Shown: positions 1,915 through 46,374 of the stretch, piece after piece
Layout: each line of letters opens with the position of its first letter
Numbering within the stretch: position 1 is the first letter of the stretch
From: Bacteroidales bacterium
GTDB taxonomy: Bacteria; Bacteroidota; Bacteroidia; Bacteroidales; TTA-H9
Direction: 5' to 3'
Assembly (NCBI GenBank): GCA_030656615.1
Contig: JAUSOY010000011.1
Coordinates: 1 to 56,084, forward strand
Length of the DNA stretch: 56,084 bases
Position numbers and translations under genes: made by a program
The notes under the pieces: generated by a model
Told to the model about the DNA's origin: nothing
The model's input: only the letters and a program-made list of their open reading frames with translations
Databases searched by the model: none

Positions 1915-3102
1915 TTACGGTTTGTCGGTAATTACTATTCTAAACGCACCAATCCCTGAATCATTTCCGGTATCGGTTGCCGTTACTATAATTCTAAGTT
2001 CTCCTGTTCCTGTTGGCACACCTGAAAAAGTTTTTGTAAGTTCATTAAAAATCAACCATGATGGCAATGGACTGCCATCGATTTGAGTTGTCGTATATGA
2101 AAAGATAGTGCCACCATCTTCATCAAAAAAAGTATCGTCAGGAATCGAGAAACTAAACGAATCACCCACCAATGCTTTTTGACTTTTTAATTTATTTTTA
2201 TTGTAAGGCGGAATATTAGTGAACTTCAAACTATCAATCAAACCATCAACACGAACCCAATACACATTAACGTCTGAATAATCAGGCTTGGTGCCCGTTG
2301 TATAAAAAAGGTATCTATTATCGGATGTAACATAAGGTCCCCACATGCCAAGCCCGAAGTTTATTTTAGAGCCCAAATTTCTTGGATTTGTCCAACTACT
2401 ATCTTTTTTAGGATAACTAATACTTAAACCCCATGGCGTTGTTACTATCATAAACGATTCATCTCTGGAAACAAAAAAATCCAAATTATCCCAGGCGGTA
2501 TTTAGTGGCATTCCCAGACCAATTACGGTGGTATCGGAGTTTGTAATATTAATTTTACACCAGTCAGCTACTCCAATTGTATTTTCAGGTCTCGATGAAA
2601 CATAATAATTTCCATAATTTGTAACTTGCAAATAGTGTGCTGATTCGAGTTTGGAAAATACGCTCTTGGGCATACTCCACTCCGATTCCTTTTTTATAGA
2701 AAAAAATGCTTCAGCATTTCCGTTTTCAAAATACATGGTATCACCAGTAACAGATAAGGCAGGAGAGCAAAAATCGTCGAATAAAATAACTGGACCTGTC
2801 CATTGACCCTCAGTATATTTATAACTTCTGATTTTAGCAGAATTAATGGGATAATAACTTTTAATTTCTGAATAAAATACTTCCCTTCCATTGTTAGAAA
2901 TGCTCATTCGTTCCGCTGCAAAAGATCCATTACTGACCTCCAATTTAAATATTTGAGGAGTAATTCCTGGAGGTGTTTGTCCAAGGTACAAACTATCGTG
3001 AGGAATTGTTTGTGATAAACCTGAAATGACCAGCACTGAAAGAATGCCTGAAAGAATCAGAGTTCTGAGAGGATATATAATCCTGAGATTTGTGATATTC
3101 AC
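1915..3102 (-). CDS. Exported PD40 propeller protein with C-terminal cadherin-like/Ig domain, 395 aa
   Basis: The N-terminus has a hydrophobic export signal (about residues 12-30). PD40-like blades follow (SNNGREVFYSE, SVTGDTMYFENG, SRDESFMIVTTPW, SDNRYLFYTTGTK). From about residue 310 to the end is a putative Ig or dystroglycan-type cadherin-like domain, recognisable by FSFSIPDDTFFDEDGG, LPSWLIFNE, TFSGVPTG and VTATD. Such domains in bacteria bind partners or calcium at the cell surface. There is no T9SS sorting tail. It is probably the upstream partner or paralogue of the propeller gene to its left; 129 bases separate them. Function unknown; the domain call is reasonably sure. Confidence 0.75.
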   Translation of the reverse strand: MNITNLRIIYPLRTLILSGILSVLVISGLSQTIPHDSLYLGQTPPGITPQIFKLEVSNGSFAAERMSISNNGREVFYSEIKSYYPINSAKIRSYKYTEGQWTGPVILFDDFCSPALSVTGDTMYFENGNAEAFFSIKKESEWSMPKSVFSKLESAHYLQVTNYGNYYVSSRPENTIGVADWCKINITNSDTTVIGLGMPLNTAWDNLDFFVSRDESFMIVTTPWGLSISYPKKDSSWTNPRNLGSKINFGLGMWGPYVTSDNRYLFYTTGTKPDYSDVNVYWVRVDGLIDSLKFTNIPPYNKNKLKSQKALVGDSFSFSIPDDTFFDEDGGTIFSYTTTQIDGSPLPSWLIFNELTKTFSGVPTGTGELRIIVTATDTGNDSGIGAFRIVITDKP

Positions 3103-3166
3103 AATTAATAAGCTTTAATTATAAACAATTCATCAAAGAAATGAATACAAATCTCCGGAATAAAAC

Positions 3167-3203
3167 AAAATATGATAAGCGGTTAAAAAATATGATAAGC
3201 GGT
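3167..3203. repeat. 17-bp direct repeat, 20-bp period
   Basis: AAAATATGATAAGCGGT occurs at 3167-3183 and again at 3187-3203. It lies in the divergent intergenic space between the propeller gene and the ABC-F gene, about 110 bases ahead of the ABC-F -7 box. A two-copy same-face repeat with a 20-base period could be a regulator site or simple slippage. Confidence 0.6.
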
Positions 3204-3310
3204 ATTTTAGGCAATGAAACAGAATATCAAATCCGCTAATTCACGATTTAAAATGAAACGATTTTTATCAGGCTGATTGATGCGATTTATAAAAATTGGC
3301 TAAAAACCGA

Positions 3311-3318
3311 TACCTTTG
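3311..3318 (+). promoter_or_regulatory. -7 box of the ABC-F gene
   Basis: TACCTTTG matches TAnnTTTG and lies 21 bases ahead of the ATG. No good -33 TTG is seen at the usual spacing. Confidence 0.5.
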
Positions 3319-3339
3319 CCGGCTCATTAAAAAATAGAA

Positions 3340-4983
3340 ATGATTTCAGTTGATGGATTAAGCGTTGAGTTTGGGGGAACCACACTTTTTAAAGATGTTT
3401 CATTTGCAATAAACGATAAGGACCGAATTGCCCTCATGGGTAAGAATGGTGCAGGAAAATCTACCTTACTGAAAATTATTGCTGGTACAAAAGCGCCTAC
3501 GCGCGGTAATGTTTCTGCACCCAGAGATGCCGTTATTGCGTACTTACCACAGCATCTGCTCACGGTAGACAGCCGTACCGTTTTCGAAGAGGCTGCTCAG
3601 GCATTTGCCCAGATTTTTGATATGGAACGCGAAATTGAAGATCTGAATACTCAACTCTCTACCCGAACCGATTATGAATCGGCCGAGTACTACGAGCTGA
3701 TTGATCAACTTTCGACGCTTTCTGAGAAATTCTATTCCATCGAAGGCATTAATTACGACGCCGAAGTGGAAAAGATATTATTGGGACTTGGATTTGTGCG
3801 CGAAGATTTCACCCGTCAAACGAGTGAATTTAGCGGTGGATGGCGGATGCGCCTCGAACTGGCTAAAATCCTTCTTCAAAAGCCTGACCTCATTTTACTT
3901 GATGAGCCCACCAACCATATGGATATAGAATCAATTCAATGGTTCGAGGATTTTTTGATTAATAGTGCGAAAGCGGTCATCGTCATTTCTCATGACCGGG
4001 CTTTTGTAGATAATATAACCACCCGTACCATTGAAGTTACCATGGGACGTATTTATGATTACAAGGTTAACTATTCTGAATATCTTCAACTACGAAAAGA
4101 AAGACGTGAACAGCAGCAGAAGCAATTTGATGAACAGCAAAAAATAATAGCCGATAATCAGGACTTTATCGATAGATTCAGAGGTACTTACTCAAAAACC
4201 AATCAGGTTCAATCGCGGGTGAAAATGCTGGAAAAAATGGAACTGATTGAGGTTGATGAAGAAGATAATTCAGCCCTTCGATTGCGCTTTCCGCCCTCAC
4301 CCCGTTCAGGAAGCTATCCGGTAATCCTCGAAGGTGTTACGAAACGATATGGCAATCATACGGTGTTTGCCAATGCAAGCATGAGTATCGAAAGAGGAGA
4401 GCGTGTAGCTTTTGTTGGAAAGAATGGAGAAGGCAAATCTACCTTGGTTAAATGTCTGATGAATGAAACTGAATGTGAAGGCACTCTTACCCTGGGACAT
4501 AATACAATGATTGGCTATTTTGCCCAAAACGAAGCCTCATTATTGAATGAAGAAGTCACCGTATTTCAAACGATTGACGATGTAGCCAAAGGCGATATCC
4601 GTACGAAAATTAAAGATATTTTAGGCGCTTTTATGTTCGGAGGCGATAGCTGGAATAAAAAAGTGAAGGTACTTTCCGGTGGCGAACGCACCCGACTGGC
4701 CATGATAAAATTGCTTCTCGAACCGGTAAACCTTCTGATTCTGGATGAGCCCACCAATCATCTGGATATGAAAACGAAAGATATCCTGAAGGCTGCATTA
4801 CAAGATTATGATGGTACACTCATCCTTGTTTCACATGATCGTGACTTTTTAGACGGCTTGGTGAATAAGGTTTTTGAATTTGGCAATAAGCGTGTTCGTG
4901 AGCATCTGTATGATATCAATGGCTTTTTGGCAAAGAAAAAGCTTGAAAATCTCAGAGAATTGGAAAGAACAATAAAAAAATGA
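3340..4983 (+). CDS. ABC-F family ATPase, 547 aa
   Basis: Two ATP-binding cassettes lie on one chain with no membrane segment, the hallmark of ABC-F translation factors and ribosome-protection proteins. NBD1 has Walker A GKNGAGKST near residue 35, signature SGGWRMR and Walker B LLDEPTNHMD; NBD2 has GKNGEGKST, LSGGERTRL and LILDEPTNHLD. Both Walker B glutamates and both switch histidines (ISHDR, VSHDR) are intact. A charged, glutamine-rich stretch (about residues 240-330) is the interdomain P-site tRNA interaction motif. Length and sequence fit the housekeeping Bacteroidota members rather than a resistance type, but subfamily cannot be decided by eye. It is monocistronic. Confidence 0.92.
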   Translation: MISVDGLSVEFGGTTLFKDVSFAINDKDRIALMGKNGAGKSTLLKIIAGTKAPTRGNVSAPRDAVIAYLPQHLLTVDSRTVFEEAAQAFAQIFDMEREIEDLNTQLSTRTDYESAEYYELIDQLSTLSEKFYSIEGINYDAEVEKILLGLGFVREDFTRQTSEFSGGWRMRLELAKILLQKPDLILLDEPTNHMDIESIQWFEDFLINSAKAVIVISHDRAFVDNITTRTIEVTMGRIYDYKVNYSEYLQLRKERREQQQKQFDEQQKIIADNQDFIDRFRGTYSKTNQVQSRVKMLEKMELIEVDEEDNSALRLRFPPSPRSGSYPVILEGVTKRYGNHTVFANASMSIERGERVAFVGKNGEGKSTLVKCLMNETECEGTLTLGHNTMIGYFAQNEASLLNEEVTVFQTIDDVAKGDIRTKIKDILGAFMFGGDSWNKKVKVLSGGERTRLAMIKLLLEPVNLLILDEPTNHLDMKTKDILKAALQDYDGTLILVSHDRDFLDGLVNKVFEFGNKRVREHLYDINGFLAKKKLENLRELERTIKK

Positions 4984-42048: not shown

Positions 42049-42212
42049 TATCAGGCGAAGGATTTATTAAATACCGCGGCTCACTATAATTCCAGATTAA
42101 AAGAAACAGATGTTTGTCTTCAGGCAAAATATTGAATTATATGCAGATGCAGCTAAATGCAATGGCCAATAAATATTTTTATGGTATTGACACAGATAAA
42201 ATAAGTTCTTGC

Positions 42213-42220
42213 TATATTTG
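42213..42220 (+). promoter_or_regulatory. -7 box upstream of the restriction endonuclease gene
   Basis: TATATTTG matches TAnnTTTG. TTGACA (42187-42192) lies upstream at 23-base TTG spacing, wider than usual. The leader to the ATG at 42331 would be about 105 bases. Confidence 0.4.
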
Positions 42221-42330
42221 CGTAGGATGCCATTTAGAAGTTCATCCCCGCAAGATGGTTTTCATTCTGTATAAGAATAGAGAGTACGTAAGTTTAAAAT
42301 ATTTATCTTTGATTATTAGACAAATACATA

Positions 42331-43044
42331 ATGACAGAAACGATACTAATACAGAAAATTGTTGATTATTTTGAGACAAATATATTTAGTAATCATATTG
42401 AAGCATCACTAAAGAAAAACTCAAAGCTAAAGTCTTACAATATTAACCCGATTGTAGTAAAGTATCTTTCAAGAGTTCTTGAAGGTAACTACAGCCCAGA
42501 GGGAGTAGCAAAAGCACTATTTTATCCTCGCGTACTTGGAACCTCCATAAATACTTCTTTTGGAACTCGAATCCAAAATATGTTTGTTGACCTTGAAATT
42601 GCAAGCGGTTCACTTATAAAAGGAATGGATATCGAATTTATTGACCAAATTGACCAAAGAAAAAAATGGTGTCAACTAAAGTCTGGTCCGAATACGATTA
42701 ATTCGGAAGATGTTAAACCCTTAATTCAAAAATTCACTAAAACCATAAATTTAGCAAGAACAAATAATGCTTTCTTAGGAATAAGTAATTCTGATTTTAT
42801 TGTAGGTGTACTTTATGGAGAACCAAATGAATTAAGTATGCATTATAAGGACATTGATAAAACTCATCCTGTATTTATTGGCACAGAGTTTTGGCACAGA
42901 ATTACAGGCTATCCAAATTTTTATAAAGGTTTAGTTCTGGAGTTACACAGAAGTATAAATACGATCGATACAAAAGATTTAATAAATAAGGGCTGTGAGA
43001 TTTTGGCAGCAGAGATTAAAACGTCTCCGCTTTTTGATTTTTAA
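42331..43044 (+). CDS. Type II restriction endonuclease, Eco47II/Sau96I-like, 237 aa
   Basis: The PD-(D/E)xK nuclease core is visible as Asp100 and Glu102 (GMDIEFIDQID) and the Gln115-x-Lys117 of CQLKSGPNTINSEDV, a combination I associate with the Eco47II family, whose members cut GGNCC. The fold and length (about 240 aa) agree. It is convergent with the cytosine methyltransferase and their 3' ends overlap by 29 bases, a compact tail-to-tail restriction-modification pair. Codon use is strongly AT-biased relative to the exporter operon, which suggests horizontal acquisition. Specificity is inferred from family membership only. Confidence 0.85.
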   Translation: MTETILIQKIVDYFETNIFSNHIEASLKKNSKLKSYNINPIVVKYLSRVLEGNYSPEGVAKALFYPRVLGTSINTSFGTRIQNMFVDLEIASGSLIKGMDIEFIDQIDQRKKWCQLKSGPNTINSEDVKPLIQKFTKTINLARTNNAFLGISNSDFIVGVLYGEPNELSMHYKDIDKTHPVFIGTEFWHRITGYPNFYKGLVLELHRSINTIDTKDLINKGCEILAAEIKTSPLFDF

Positions 43045-44266
43045 TAGTGTAATATTCATTTAAGAATTTCACAATTGAGTAACCCACTTCTTGGCCTAAG
43101 TTAACGGGGACAGCATTGCCAATTTGTTTGTATTGTTGAGCCATTGAGCCAGAAAAACTCCATTCATCAGGAAAGGTTTGAATACGAGCATACTCGCGGA
43201 TAGTAAAAGGACGAGTAACGTCTGGATGACATCTTTCCGTTTGTTTTTGAGCAGGACTGCATGTAAGAGTTAAAGAAGGTTCATCCCAGCCTATTCTACG
43301 AGCCATTCCAGTTTTTCCACCACCCAAATAGAAACTCCCACCCATGTATTCTTTCTGAACATCAACTGGTAAATCTCGCCAATATCCTTTAGGTGGAACT
43401 AGGTCAAGAACATCTTTCTTGTACTTTGGATAAGTAGCCCCTTCAGACGTTGGAACATTAGTATTGAAAAGCTCACCTTTTCTTAATGCATCTTTAAGTG
43501 TGTAAATTTTATTGTGTGGTTTTGGATATTCAAAACTTGTATCTATGTCTTTTCTAACGCCAACTAAAATTAGCCTTTCCCTCTTTTGCGGAACTCGATA
43601 ATGAATAGCCTTTAAAATTTTAAAAGGCACCACGTTATAACCAATTTCATTTAGAATCGATATCATTCCTTGTAAGGTTTTTCCTTTTTCGTGACTTAAT
43701 AAGCCTCGGACGTTTTCGCCAATACAAATCAATGGATTAACTTCTTGAACGACTCTTGCAAACTCATAAAAAAGTGTTCCACGGGCATCATTAAGCCCGA
43801 GTTTTTTACCAGCATAACTAAAAGCTTGACAAGGAAATCCGCCAGTTATGACATCAACTTTGTTCTTAAAATGTGTAAAGCTGAAATCCTTAATATCGCC
43901 TTCCAGAACATTCCAGTTAGGCCTGTTACTCCTAAGAGTCTGGCATGCCCATTTATCAATTTCATTTAGTGCCACACATTTCAACCCGGCCTTCTCGAGA
44001 CCAACAGCTAAACCCCCTGCACCAGCAAAAAGTTCAAGCACTGAATATTGCTTTTTAGATTCCGTATAGTTTGAAACTTCATCACTATTCGAATTGTCAA
44101 ATAGTGATCCTAACAAAATTTGAACATCTGATCTTTTATAAACCCGATAATTTGAAACAGGTTCACGAACTGCATTTAATATACCCTCTTTATCCCATCT
44201 TCGCAAAGTTTCTTTACTCTTACCTATAAGCTCTGCGGCTTCTGATAATGACAGATAATTCTTCAT
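43016..44266 (-). CDS. DNA (cytosine-5) methyltransferase with N-terminal MerR-like helix-turn-helix, 416 aa
   Basis: Residues 1-52 form a DNA-binding domain of excisionase/MerR type (YLSLSEAAELIGKSKETLRRW, YRVYKRSDV). From residue 75 is a C5-methyltransferase: motif I VLELFAGAGGLAVGLE, catalytic Cys146 in GGFPCQAFS, motif VI GENVRGLL, motif VIII PQKRERLI, then the target recognition region and QIGNAVPVNLG. It protects sites cut by the convergent endonuclease, probably GGNCC. The extra DNA-binding domain is well placed to control expression of the pair, as N-terminal HTH domains do in some other C5-methyltransferases such as M.SsoII. Overlap with the endonuclease gene is 29 bases. Confidence 0.9.
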   Translation of the reverse strand: MKNYLSLSEAAELIGKSKETLRRWDKEGILNAVREPVSNYRVYKRSDVQILLGSLFDNSNSDEVSNYTESKKQYSVLELFAGAGGLAVGLEKAGLKCVALNEIDKWACQTLRSNRPNWNVLEGDIKDFSFTHFKNKVDVITGGFPCQAFSYAGKKLGLNDARGTLFYEFARVVQEVNPLICIGENVRGLLSHEKGKTLQGMISILNEIGYNVVPFKILKAIHYRVPQKRERLILVGVRKDIDTSFEYPKPHNKIYTLKDALRKGELFNTNVPTSEGATYPKYKKDVLDLVPPKGYWRDLPVDVQKEYMGGSFYLGGGKTGMARRIGWDEPSLTLTCSPAQKQTERCHPDVTRPFTIREYARIQTFPDEWSFSGSMAQQYKQIGNAVPVNLGQEVGYSIVKFLNEYYTIKNQKAETF

Positions 44267-44270
44267 ATAA

Positions 44271-44386
44271 CCACATTATTAAACATTATTCAATGGTTAC
44301 AAATATACGAATAATTTTAACATGATAGAAATGAACAATCGCATAAAAATAATACAATTAAAATTTTTAAAAACATGATAATGTGG
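44271..44386. promoter_or_regulatory. Methyltransferase promoter region with repeated ATAATGTGG sites
   Basis: Leftward TATATTTG (44300-44307) is the -7 box. ATAATGTGG appears leftward at 44271-44279, just ahead of the start codon, and rightward at 44378-44386. A related AATAATGTTT lies next to the first copy. Repeated sites flanking the promoter are candidates for binding by the methyltransferase's own HTH domain. Confidence 0.4.
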
Positions 44387-45006
44387 CGATTGCAAATTAA
44401 CTTAGAATGGATATGAAAATCAATATGTCTCATCCGATCTTTTAACTAATTGATTATCTGATGAAATTTAACTAGCCATTAAACTTTAGAACGCGTGTAA
44501 AAAAACAAGAAAAAAGCAATTATTAGGCTAAGCTCGGAAAATTGAAGTAGACACTTATAGTTTTTGCCTTTCTCATTTTAATCTAGCAGGAAATAACATT
44601 ATTCTGCATTTCGATATAGTTCCAGACCTTGACTATTTAAAAACGAACCCCTCTTTTCAAAAATATTCATGCATCTTACAAGTTAAGCATTAACAATTAA
44701 AAAGTTAAAGTGGTAATAAATCTATTTGCATTGTTTCTCAGTTCTTATCACTTTCGATATGCTAAATAATTGGATTTAAACGGAATATCCGAAACAAAGT
44801 CTTAAGCCAATTCGTAAGTTTTATGCTACCTACCGGAATGCGAAATCGTTGATTTGCTGAGCATAAGCTAGATCCAATATTTACAATTAATCCTTAAAGT
44901 ATTTGAAATTAAATAGTTTTACCCAGTTTGTTGACCCATCTTCCGTAGAAAATCACTATTCTCAAATTTTTGTCATGTACTTTTGATGATTTCATCGTAA
45001 GTTCAA
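44387..45006. other. AT-rich intergenic region without recognised content
   Basis: No open frame, RNA gene or repeat that I can support. Base composition is among the most AT-rich in the window, fitting a recently acquired or decayed stretch next to the restriction genes. Confidence 0.4.
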
Positions 45007-45054: not shown

Positions 45055-46374
45055 ATGAAACATACTTACAAGAGCGTTTTACAAGTGGTATTGAACACAG
45101 CATTTTTTTGTTTTCTGTTTTTTGTGATAGCCTCGTGCGGAAAAGAAATTGAAACATCGCCAATTAATTTCAAGGTAGAACAGATTCCGGGAAGTAAAAA
45201 TCATAGTCCTAATGGAACCTGGTGGGGTTATAATCAAAGTAAAATTGTTCGCTTCGGAAACACGGTTTATATGTATGTTATCGACAATCAAAACATTGAT
45301 ATTAATCCAAACCCCAACGCCTCCAATCCCTCTAAAATTGTATTGTACCGAAAAGAAGACGATAATAGCTGGCAAAAAGGTGCTTCGTTTAACACTTCGA
45401 GACCTGGTAATATATTAATGGATTCAGAAGGCATTGTGCATCTTATTGTTTTTGAACCTACATACACACAGTCTTTCGAAAATGGTGCTTATGGAAAATT
45501 ACTGCACTATTGGTTCCCCAATTGTAAAACAGGTGATATCAGCATTTTTAATCAGGAAATCATTGTTGATAATGATGGTGTAAGTCAGGGCGAAACCGTG
45601 AATATGCGCGTTGGAGCCTCTATTGGAGACGATGATATGATTAGCGTTTCATTTGGCTTAAATAAGGGTCATCAGATTTATTATAAAGAAAAGAACGGAA
45701 TTAAATGGCAGATGGAATACGCCTGGCAAAATTTAAACAGCGATGTGTATTATCCGTACGTAATATCAACTGATTTTGGATTAGGAATACTGGCAATTCA
45801 GGATAATTTTGTTGGTGAGAATATGCCCAATATCTACCAAAAAATATTTTATTTTGAAAGAAAATCCGGTATTTGGACACCCGAGACCATTATTGACCTG
45901 CAAAACAATGCTTTAGCCTCTACAAGACCCCAACTGGTAGAAAATTGCGACATTTTTCAAGATAGAAACAAACAAATCCATTTACTTTATCAAACCAGAC
46001 TGAATCCGGCCGATCCGTGGTTAAATACCTTTTATCTCGCCACGCAAACTATTTCCGGTTGGGAGCATAAGGAAATCTCAATTTCTGAAGAGTCGACAAA
46101 CTGGCTGCGGATGATTGAAATTCAAGGGACACAATATTTTTTATGTACTTCCTGGGATAAACTTTATGTAAAAAAGGGTATTGATGGTCAGTTTTACGAG
46201 ATACCGATTCCGAAAATGAGTGGGATTTATGTATATATTAACTCCCCCCGTGGCGGTACCAAAACCAATGAAAATTTCATCGATATTCTATTGTTAAATG
46301 GAAATAGCAATGATTATCCAAACGCAAAAAATTATTATCTGCGTATTGAAAAATCGGAATTCTTAAAACTCTGA
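45055..46374 (+). CDS. Exported lipoprotein with BNR/sialidase-like propeller character, 439 aa
   Basis: The signal peptide ends in a lipobox (FVIASCGKEIE), so the protein is lipid-anchored after export. The mature part has a repeating pattern of paired beta strands separated by D-S-x-G and S-x-x-P turns (KIVLYRKEDDNSWQKG, NILMDSEGIVHLIVF, ISVSFGLNKGHQIYYKE, HLLYQTRLNPADPW), reminiscent of six-bladed BNR-repeat proteins. No sialidase arginine triad can be assigned. I do not recognise the exact family. It is isolated, with long AT-rich gaps on both sides. Confidence 0.65.
   Translation: MKHTYKSVLQVVLNTAFFCFLFFVIASCGKEIETSPINFKVEQIPGSKNHSPNGTWWGYNQSKIVRFGNTVYMYVIDNQNIDINPNPNASNPSKIVLYRKEDDNSWQKGASFNTSRPGNILMDSEGIVHLIVFEPTYTQSFENGAYGKLLHYWFPNCKTGDISIFNQEIIVDNDGVSQGETVNMRVGASIGDDDMISVSFGLNKGHQIYYKEKNGIKWQMEYAWQNLNSDVYYPYVISTDFGLGILAIQDNFVGENMPNIYQKIFYFERKSGIWTPETIIDLQNNALASTRPQLVENCDIFQDRNKQIHLLYQTRLNPADPWLNTFYLATQTISGWEHKEISISEESTNWLRMIEIQGTQYFLCTSWDKLYVKKGIDGQFYEIPIPKMSGIYVYINSPRGGTKTNENFIDILLLNGNSNDYPNAKNYYLRIEKSEFLKL

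Follow-up and report, generated by a model that had tools for sequence, protein, structure and literature searches.

In a restriction-modification pair on contig JAUSOY010000011.1 of a Bacteroidales bacterium, the methyltransferase very probably represses its own transcription through a MerR-type winged helix at a 32-base-pair (bp) operator and leaves the nuclease without direct control. The pair lies in a 56,084-nucleotide stretch of DNA, the whole of which is called the window below. What was observed directly in the DNA compared is the two genes and the 32-bp element, including where the element lies, how well it is conserved and that it occurs together with this helix-turn-helix (HTH) domain.

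The gene pair and the element at the methyltransferase promoter

The open reading frames (ORFs) of the nuclease (237 residues) and the methyltransferase (416 residues) converge, and their coordinates agree with the first-pass annotation of the window, which had described a convergent restriction-modification pair with a 29-base overlap (Table 1). The methyltransferase had been described there as a C5-methyltransferase with an additional N-terminal MerR-type HTH domain, and this was borne out: PF00145 was matched with 280.9 bits, and MerR_1 was matched at residues 6-51 with 34.1 bits against a cut-off of 21.6. The catalytic motifs are intact, with P145 C146, E184 N185 V186, Q227-R231 and G383 N384 invariant in 24 methyltransferase sequences. 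The nuclease had been labelled as Eco47II-type, and this label had to be replaced, because the Eco47II family (PF09553) scored 15.2 bits, below its cut-off of 25.9, and was rejected. The nuclease instead passed the EcoO109I family (PF14511) with 89.5 bits against a curated cut-off of 22.5. A profile of the nuclease and five relatives matched EcoO109I in the PDB (1wtd, E 4.5e-06), and D100 and K117 were invariant in 6 of 6 aligned sequences.

Residues 1-69 of the methyltransferase exceeded the cut-offs of MerR_1 (38.2 bits), MerR (35.8 bits) and HTH_17 (30.6 bits). No Xre-like or C-protein-like HTH was recognized in this segment, for which HTH_3 gave 14.9 bits, below its cut-off of 23. When predicted alone, the domain adopted a MerR/BldC/Xis-like winged helix with a predicted local distance difference test score (pLDDT) of 82.5. 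Its best PDB matches were MerR-family proteins, BldC and Xis (6ama, 6amk, 4j2n), with Z of 8.0-8.3 over 51-54 residues, a level near 8 at which, as the tool warns, a match may reflect a common arrangement. In the full-length model (mean pLDDT 77.6), a low-confidence linker at residues 53-60 joins the HTH domain to the enzyme.

The upstream DNA was compared in 87 loci, comprising the window, six loci from whole genomes and 80 loci from genome_contigs; L002 and L003 are near-copies. The six close relatives were drawn from 395 genomes of the phylum, have nucleases 47-70% identical to that of the window and all carry the same convergent methyltransferase. The other 80 were the best 80 of 539 relatives found in a methyltransferase alignment scan; nearly all are labelled Bacteroidota, with one Limnohabitans and one Chlorobiota among them. 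A dyad, TAACCA-N20-TGGTTA, was found to precede the methyltransferase start in all 87 loci, with N19 in L005 and L006. Its arms were free of mismatches in 79 loci, had one mismatch in 7 and two in 1. Mono-nucleotide shuffles reached two mismatches in 6 of 435 cases and never fewer, and the element was absent, at up to two mismatches, from control regions at -310..-200 (0 of 78 loci).

Column information was calculated from the 79 loci with distinct upstream DNA among the 85 with a 20-base spacer. It was approximately 1.4-2.7 bits in TAACC, in an inner GGTT and in the outer GGTTA, and 0-0.65 in the columns upstream of the putative -7 box. The consensus, TTTG-TAACCATTGTRTAAGGTTaaayaaynTGGTTA, thus contains three AACC/GGTT elements 13 bp apart. 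TAnnTTTG is described as the Bacteroidota -7 box and occupies positions -12 to -5 in Flavobacterium psychrophilum (PMC9723704). Because of this position, transcription is expected to start at the fifth base of the element, near 44295 in the window. In 68 of 87 loci, the last base of the element is also the first base of a start codon, and the ATG of the window occupies 44266-44264. On this evidence, the element is a conserved, presumably regulatory site that overlaps the predicted methyltransferase promoter and is distinct from the presumed methylation motif.

The first-pass annotation had placed the operator elsewhere, in a pair of ATAATGTGG sites. Both exact copies exist as described, one at 44271-44279 (-) and one distal (Table 1), and there are no others in the window, but their role as an operator pair was not upheld. 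When 44200-44500 was shuffled by dinucleotides, 191 of 500 shuffles held an exact 9-bp inverted repeat, as did 36 of 186 window tiles. Among the 87 loci, only the window has an exact upstream copy, and 2 have one within a single mismatch, compared with a shuffled mean of 3.35. Because such repeats arise readily in shuffles and tiles and the upstream copy is exact only in the window, the pair provides no evidence of an operator and was rejected. The proximal copy falls within the conserved element at 44268-44299.

The nuclease gene was then considered as a second target, since control of the pair had also been suggested. The dyad with up to two mismatches was found in 0 of 76 nuclease upstream regions, in which some start codons of Eco47II-type genes were guessed. 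A TAnnTTTG box lay within 75 bases of the nuclease start in 35 of 77 loci, including the window (42304-42311). The search for a C gene beside the nuclease gave a single upstream same-strand frame of at least 60 residues (42114-42365, 83 residues), which has no Pfam match. Because the nuclease gene lacks the element, the likely circuit is autorepression of the methyltransferase only and not control of the pair. Thus, the sequences strongly support the earlier proposal that the methyltransferase regulates itself with no C protein, at a site other than the one named, and they do not support control of the pair.

In the proposed circuit, the N-terminal winged helix would bind the 32-bp operator through its TAACC, GGTT and GGTTA elements, 13 bp apart. 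The operator starts directly after the putative -7 box and would cover the predicted start of transcription together with the leader as far as the start codon. Once enough methyltransferase had accumulated, two or more molecules would occupy the operator and RNA polymerase would be excluded. A burst of methyltransferase synthesis would therefore follow entry into a new, unmethylated cell and would give way to a steady level. The convergent nuclease gene would be transcribed from its own promoter, which has no operator, and would not be directly controlled. We infer the binding, repression, stoichiometry and timing of this circuit from the sequences.

Table 1. Positions of the features of the restriction-modification locus in the window
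Feature	Position	Strand	Basis
Restriction endonuclease gene, EcoO109I-type, PD-(D/E)XK-like	42331-43044	+	PF14511, 89.5 bits
C5-cytosine methyltransferase gene with N-terminal HTH, 416 residues	43016-44266	-	PF00145, 280.9 bits
Tail-to-tail overlap of both genes	43016-43044	.	29 bases, from ORF coordinates
HTH-domain codons, residues 1-51; recognition-helix motif ETLRRWD at residues 19-25	44114-44266	-	MerR_1 at 6-51
Proposed operator TAACCATTGAATAATGTTTAATAATGTGGTTA (methyltransferase sense); outer arms 44294-44299 and 44268-44273	44268-44299	-	87/87 loci
Putative methyltransferase -7 box TATATTTG, adjoining the operator	44300-44307	-	TAnnTTTG abuts the element in 81/87 loci
Putative nuclease -7 box TATCTTTG, without operator	42304-42311	+	TAnnTTTG at -27 from ATG
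Distal ATAATGTGG copy	44378-44386	+	Judged a chance match

Association of the element with the HTH-methyltransferase

MerR-type domains are, as is generally known, common in many regulators, and the element could be bound by another host regulator, with the methyltransferase HTH doing something else, such as guiding methylation. A host regulon should show more copies of the element. Of 395 phylum genomes sampled evenly, 11 carry the methyltransferase, and the strict element pattern matched 18. Nine of these were carriers, and each match lay directly upstream of the methyltransferase gene. The other nine had unrelated interiors, compared with 12 matches of a reversed control pattern, which is the background level; thus, the 384 sampled genomes that lack the methyltransferase showed no excess of the element over background. 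The genome of the window has only one copy with this interior (the loose pattern matched one other place, compared with five per strand for the reversed control), and this single copy speaks against a host regulator. In addition, the element and the gene occur together in carriers that span 8 family codes, and also on the two virus-like contigs L142 and L237. A host regulator is therefore improbable, and autorepression by the methyltransferase is the preferred reading of this distribution.

Some carriers depart in detail. In G011 and G016 the strict match lies on the strand opposite to the gene, and the matched TTTG is therefore not the -7 box. The two carriers missed by the strict pattern were L004 (G112), with one arm mismatch, and L005 (G077), in which the element is inverted and the box differs. 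Four carriers lie outside the 87 loci; G296 has the same DNA as L088, and G013, G057 and G186 have different DNA, with the element. The L005 interior runs in the opposite direction relative to the promoter, scoring 46.0 when reversed and -10.6 as it stands (one base was inserted for the shorter spacer), which fits a DNA site bound by a protein.

The TAACCA and TGGTTA arms could also form an mRNA hairpin that hides the start codon and controls translation, and the 3' arm does reach the start codon in most loci. However, leader RNAs taken from the expected start were less folded than shuffles (mean z +0.93; z < -2 in 1 of 87), and those taken from the first operator base gave a mean z of -0.01 (z < -2 in 2 of 87). 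The expected start at the fifth operator base, which follows from the box position described in PMC9723704, would leave little of the 5' arm in the transcript. Arm changes in L046, L051, L060 and L100 are uncompensated; that in L038 would leave a G-U pair. The hairpin was rejected as very improbable. Taken together, the genome sample, the L005 inversion and the leader folding fit a DNA operator bound by a protein.

The relation between helix and site was also followed in distant methyltransferases with an N-terminal extension, from virus-like contigs, plasmids and one phage. Where [DE]T[LI]RRW[DE] was present in the recognition-helix region, 9 of 10 records had at least two TAACC/GGTTA half-sites within -120..+20, variously spaced and arranged. 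With other N-termini, this was the case in 1 of 16 records (Fisher p 3e-05). Shuffled upstream regions of 22 of the records reached two half-sites in 123 of 4400 cases. The p-value is only a guide because the rule was noticed before it was counted and because some rows are related (L226/L227 and L104/L233; L142 and L237 are close to the main set). For the count, 5 of 19 plasmid records and, from later lists, hits H42, H46, H51 and H61 were retrieved. Outside it were the 87-locus set, L106 (no intact in-frame N-terminus), L145 (which lacks an N-terminal extension) and L224 and L230, which repeat L143 and L142. Scans with L238 and L231 gave mostly contigs that earlier scans had already found.

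Several points weigh against the proposed operator and against its extension to distant relatives. The 80 genome_contigs loci were chosen, as the best 80 of 539, by similarity to the protein of the window, and the inner GGTT element of the window is degenerate (ATGTT). A role in activation, as in classical MerR proteins, may also be compatible with the sequence. The stricter full dyad was present in only 6 of 10 helix carriers (0 of 16 other N-termini), and the helix carrier L229 has no half-sites and a TTACC/GGTAA repeat instead. The later records L305-L308 all lack the helix, and L305 nevertheless has two half-sites; 93 further viral loci, to which the rule was applied unchanged, included 0 helix carriers. 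Because the rule had been noticed before counting and no later record carried the helix, the later records bear only on its negative half.

Several observations concern viral and mobile relatives. The strict operator pattern had 0 matches in viral_contigs; L142 and L237, which were found by protein, have the element with small departures. L142 (IMGVR_UViG_3300047994_000532; 762-2087, 3001-4263 and 4316 on) is a phage-like contig that carries an HTH-methyltransferase with the element and, in the same direction, the beginning of an Eco47II-type nuclease gene, and one of its ORFs, identified by eye, resembles a large phage terminase. The methyltransferase of the window had no match in the phages collection at E 1e-60, and a search for L143 in E. 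coli genomes gave no match. In L305, an Aerococcus urinaeequi plasmid, the N-terminus is Xre-like by eye, and a long palindrome, GGGTTATTAATAATAATATTAATAACCC, upstream of the methyltransferase is possibly another autorepression site.

Nuclease exchange beside the methyltransferase

The nuclease beside the methyltransferase was found to differ among the 87 loci. It was EcoO109I-type in 37, Eco47II-type in 43 (some broken or short) and TdeIII-type in 4, and 3 loci had none of these families. The TdeIII-type nucleases, in L071 (by Pfam only), L078, L079 and L092, are codirectional with the methyltransferase and downstream of it, and in these four loci the operator may govern both genes. Of the loci with none of the three families, L057 and L074 run off the contig. 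The third, L027 (Galbibacter orientalis), keeps the element before its HTH-methyltransferase and has 3.5 kilobases (kb) downstream with no nuclease of the three families to which the search was confined.

When the three nuclease labels were mapped on a tree of 86 methyltransferase domains, they changed 27 times; this is a parsimony count only, as the tree has weak resolution (3 of 83 inner branches starred, the starred branches forcing at most 4 changes in any group). With "none" as a fourth label, 30 changes were counted, compared with a shuffled mean of 33.2. Individual pairs locate the exchange. The methyltransferases of L025 and L030 are 96% identical and their nucleases differ, and DNA identity drops from approximately 0.9 to 0.4 where the methyltransferase gene ends. 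In L050/L062 (two Confluentibacter species) and L066/L079 (Lutibacter), most of the upstream flank is also common, and the exchange therefore happened in place there. Thus, the same methyltransferase pairs with three nuclease families, which by sequence comparison have apparently often been exchanged between species in place.

Three loci bear traces that may belong to such exchanges. In L079, approximately 2.4 kb past the methyltransferase end and beyond the TdeIII-type gene, a 26-residue stretch is 85% identical to an Eco47II-type nuclease and is perhaps a relic. The methyltransferase lies between annotated Eco47II and TdeIII nucleases in L107 (a plasmid of Vibrio sp. ED002) and between annotated SinI and TdeIII nucleases in L307 (Streptococcus phage YS162); both are possible exchange intermediates. 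A search of viral_contigs with the nuclease profile gave 208 stretches fitting a pattern and 0 relatives.

The junction of the two genes bears on the possibility that the tail-to-tail overlap provides antisense control of the nuclease or the methyltransferase, as antisense RNAs do in EcoRI and Eco29kI (PMC3874152). The overlap is present in the window, and among the Eco47II-type loci (L021-L100) it is exactly 25 bases in 39 of 43; this fixed length suggests that the methyltransferase tail travels with the nuclease. However, the junction of the 37 EcoO109I-type pairs ranges from a 55-base overlap to a 20-base gap, with no overlap in 11, and overlap is therefore no conserved requirement there; moreover, the TdeIII-type partners are codirectional. 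Antisense control is unlikely, with rather more in its favour than the other alternatives considered here, and it could coexist with autorepression.

The three partner families also indicate what the methyltransferase may protect. EcoO109I recognizes RGGNCCY, and TdeIII recognizes GGNCC. Eco47II homologues are taken as GGNCC cutters (PMC10305163). It is therefore plausible, from the partner nucleases, that the methyltransferase performs GGNCC-class methylation, and a GGNCC methyltransferase would protect against all three types alike.

Control through methylation of a recognition site in the promoter, as established for CfrBI (PMC3978073), was considered on this basis. Two distant plasmid relatives, L103 and L107, have GGACC approximately 65 bases upstream of the methyltransferase start, together with divergent nuclease genes and a different HTH, and would fit methylation-sensitive control. 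In the 87 loci, however, GGNCC was found in none of the -120..+30 regions, and there is none between 42690 and 46385 of the window, an objection that holds if the motif is GGNCC-class. Methylation-sensitive control was therefore rejected for the window locus and is the least probable of the alternatives. Depletion of GGNCC in the window is not claimed: each of the 63 sites was counted a single time, and the expectation of 116.6 seems to be based on both strands of the palindrome.

Relation to known systems

The nearest likeness is to M.SsoII and M.Ecl18kI, which PMC3978073 and PMC3695355 describe as C5-methyltransferases with an N-terminal HTH, a flexible linker, a site at their own promoter distinct from the methylation site and no C protein. 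In those enzymes the HTH is C-protein-like (Xre-like), binds a 15-bp intergenic site, AGGACAAATTGTCCT, and indirectly raises nuclease expression. Here, in contrast, the HTH is MerR/BldC/Xis-like, the 32-bp site reaches from the -7 box as far as the start codon, and the nuclease gene, whose start is approximately 2 kb away, is convergent. An SsoII-like intergenic site AGGACAAATTGTCCT was not found: the genes converge, and the element is TAACCA-N20-TGGTTA. Repression of the methyltransferase only, like that of the proposed circuit, is reported for M.EcoRII, M.MspI, M.ScrFIA and M1.LlaJI (PMC3978073).

With the EcoO109I system, the pair has the nuclease family in common (PF14511; PDB 1wtd). That system is presented in PMC4824078 as the prototype of the C-protein class (C.EcoO109I), whereas no C gene was recognized here among frames of at least 60 residues. 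The likeness to BldC, other MerR-fold proteins and Xis excisionases lies in the predicted N-terminal fold (PDB 6ama, 6amk, 4j2n); those are free-standing small proteins, whereas here the fold is fused to an enzyme. No paper on a MerR-type HTH fused to a restriction methyltransferase was found by title or abstract opening in the open-licence PMC literature. Thus, the class of mechanism, methyltransferase autorepression, is known from SsoII, EcoRII and MspI, and what is new is the MerR-type reader, the tightly placed operator and the unusual amount of nuclease exchange.

In the 20 related genomes searched, the downstream neighbour of the locus had 0 relatives and the upstream neighbour only two (51% and 32%). 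A 439-residue ORF at 45055-46374 of the window has no Pfam match and no relative in these genomes.

It is a standing question how a new cell survives the entry of a restriction-modification system. In the literature cited, the worked examples involve control by C proteins, by antisense RNAs or by one of a few self-regulating methyltransferases. As a tentative reading, to which we give somewhat less than an even chance, the self-regulated methyltransferase and its operator would form a stable, heritable "immunity platform" on which GGNCC-class nucleases of at least three families dock and are swapped in place, the breakpoint lying at the very end of the methyltransferase gene. Jointly with this, and just as tentatively, a short code from MerR helix to TAACC would extend such control to distant phage-like relatives. 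If the platform reading is true, a new nuclease would be acceptable without re-tuning, because the protecting enzyme needs no signal from the nuclease. The 87 loci form a natural series with one precisely placed operator candidate, a case of an inverted operator and in-place nuclease exchange around an unchanged methyltransferase, and this series is suited to asking whether autoregulated protection lets nuclease genes be swapped.

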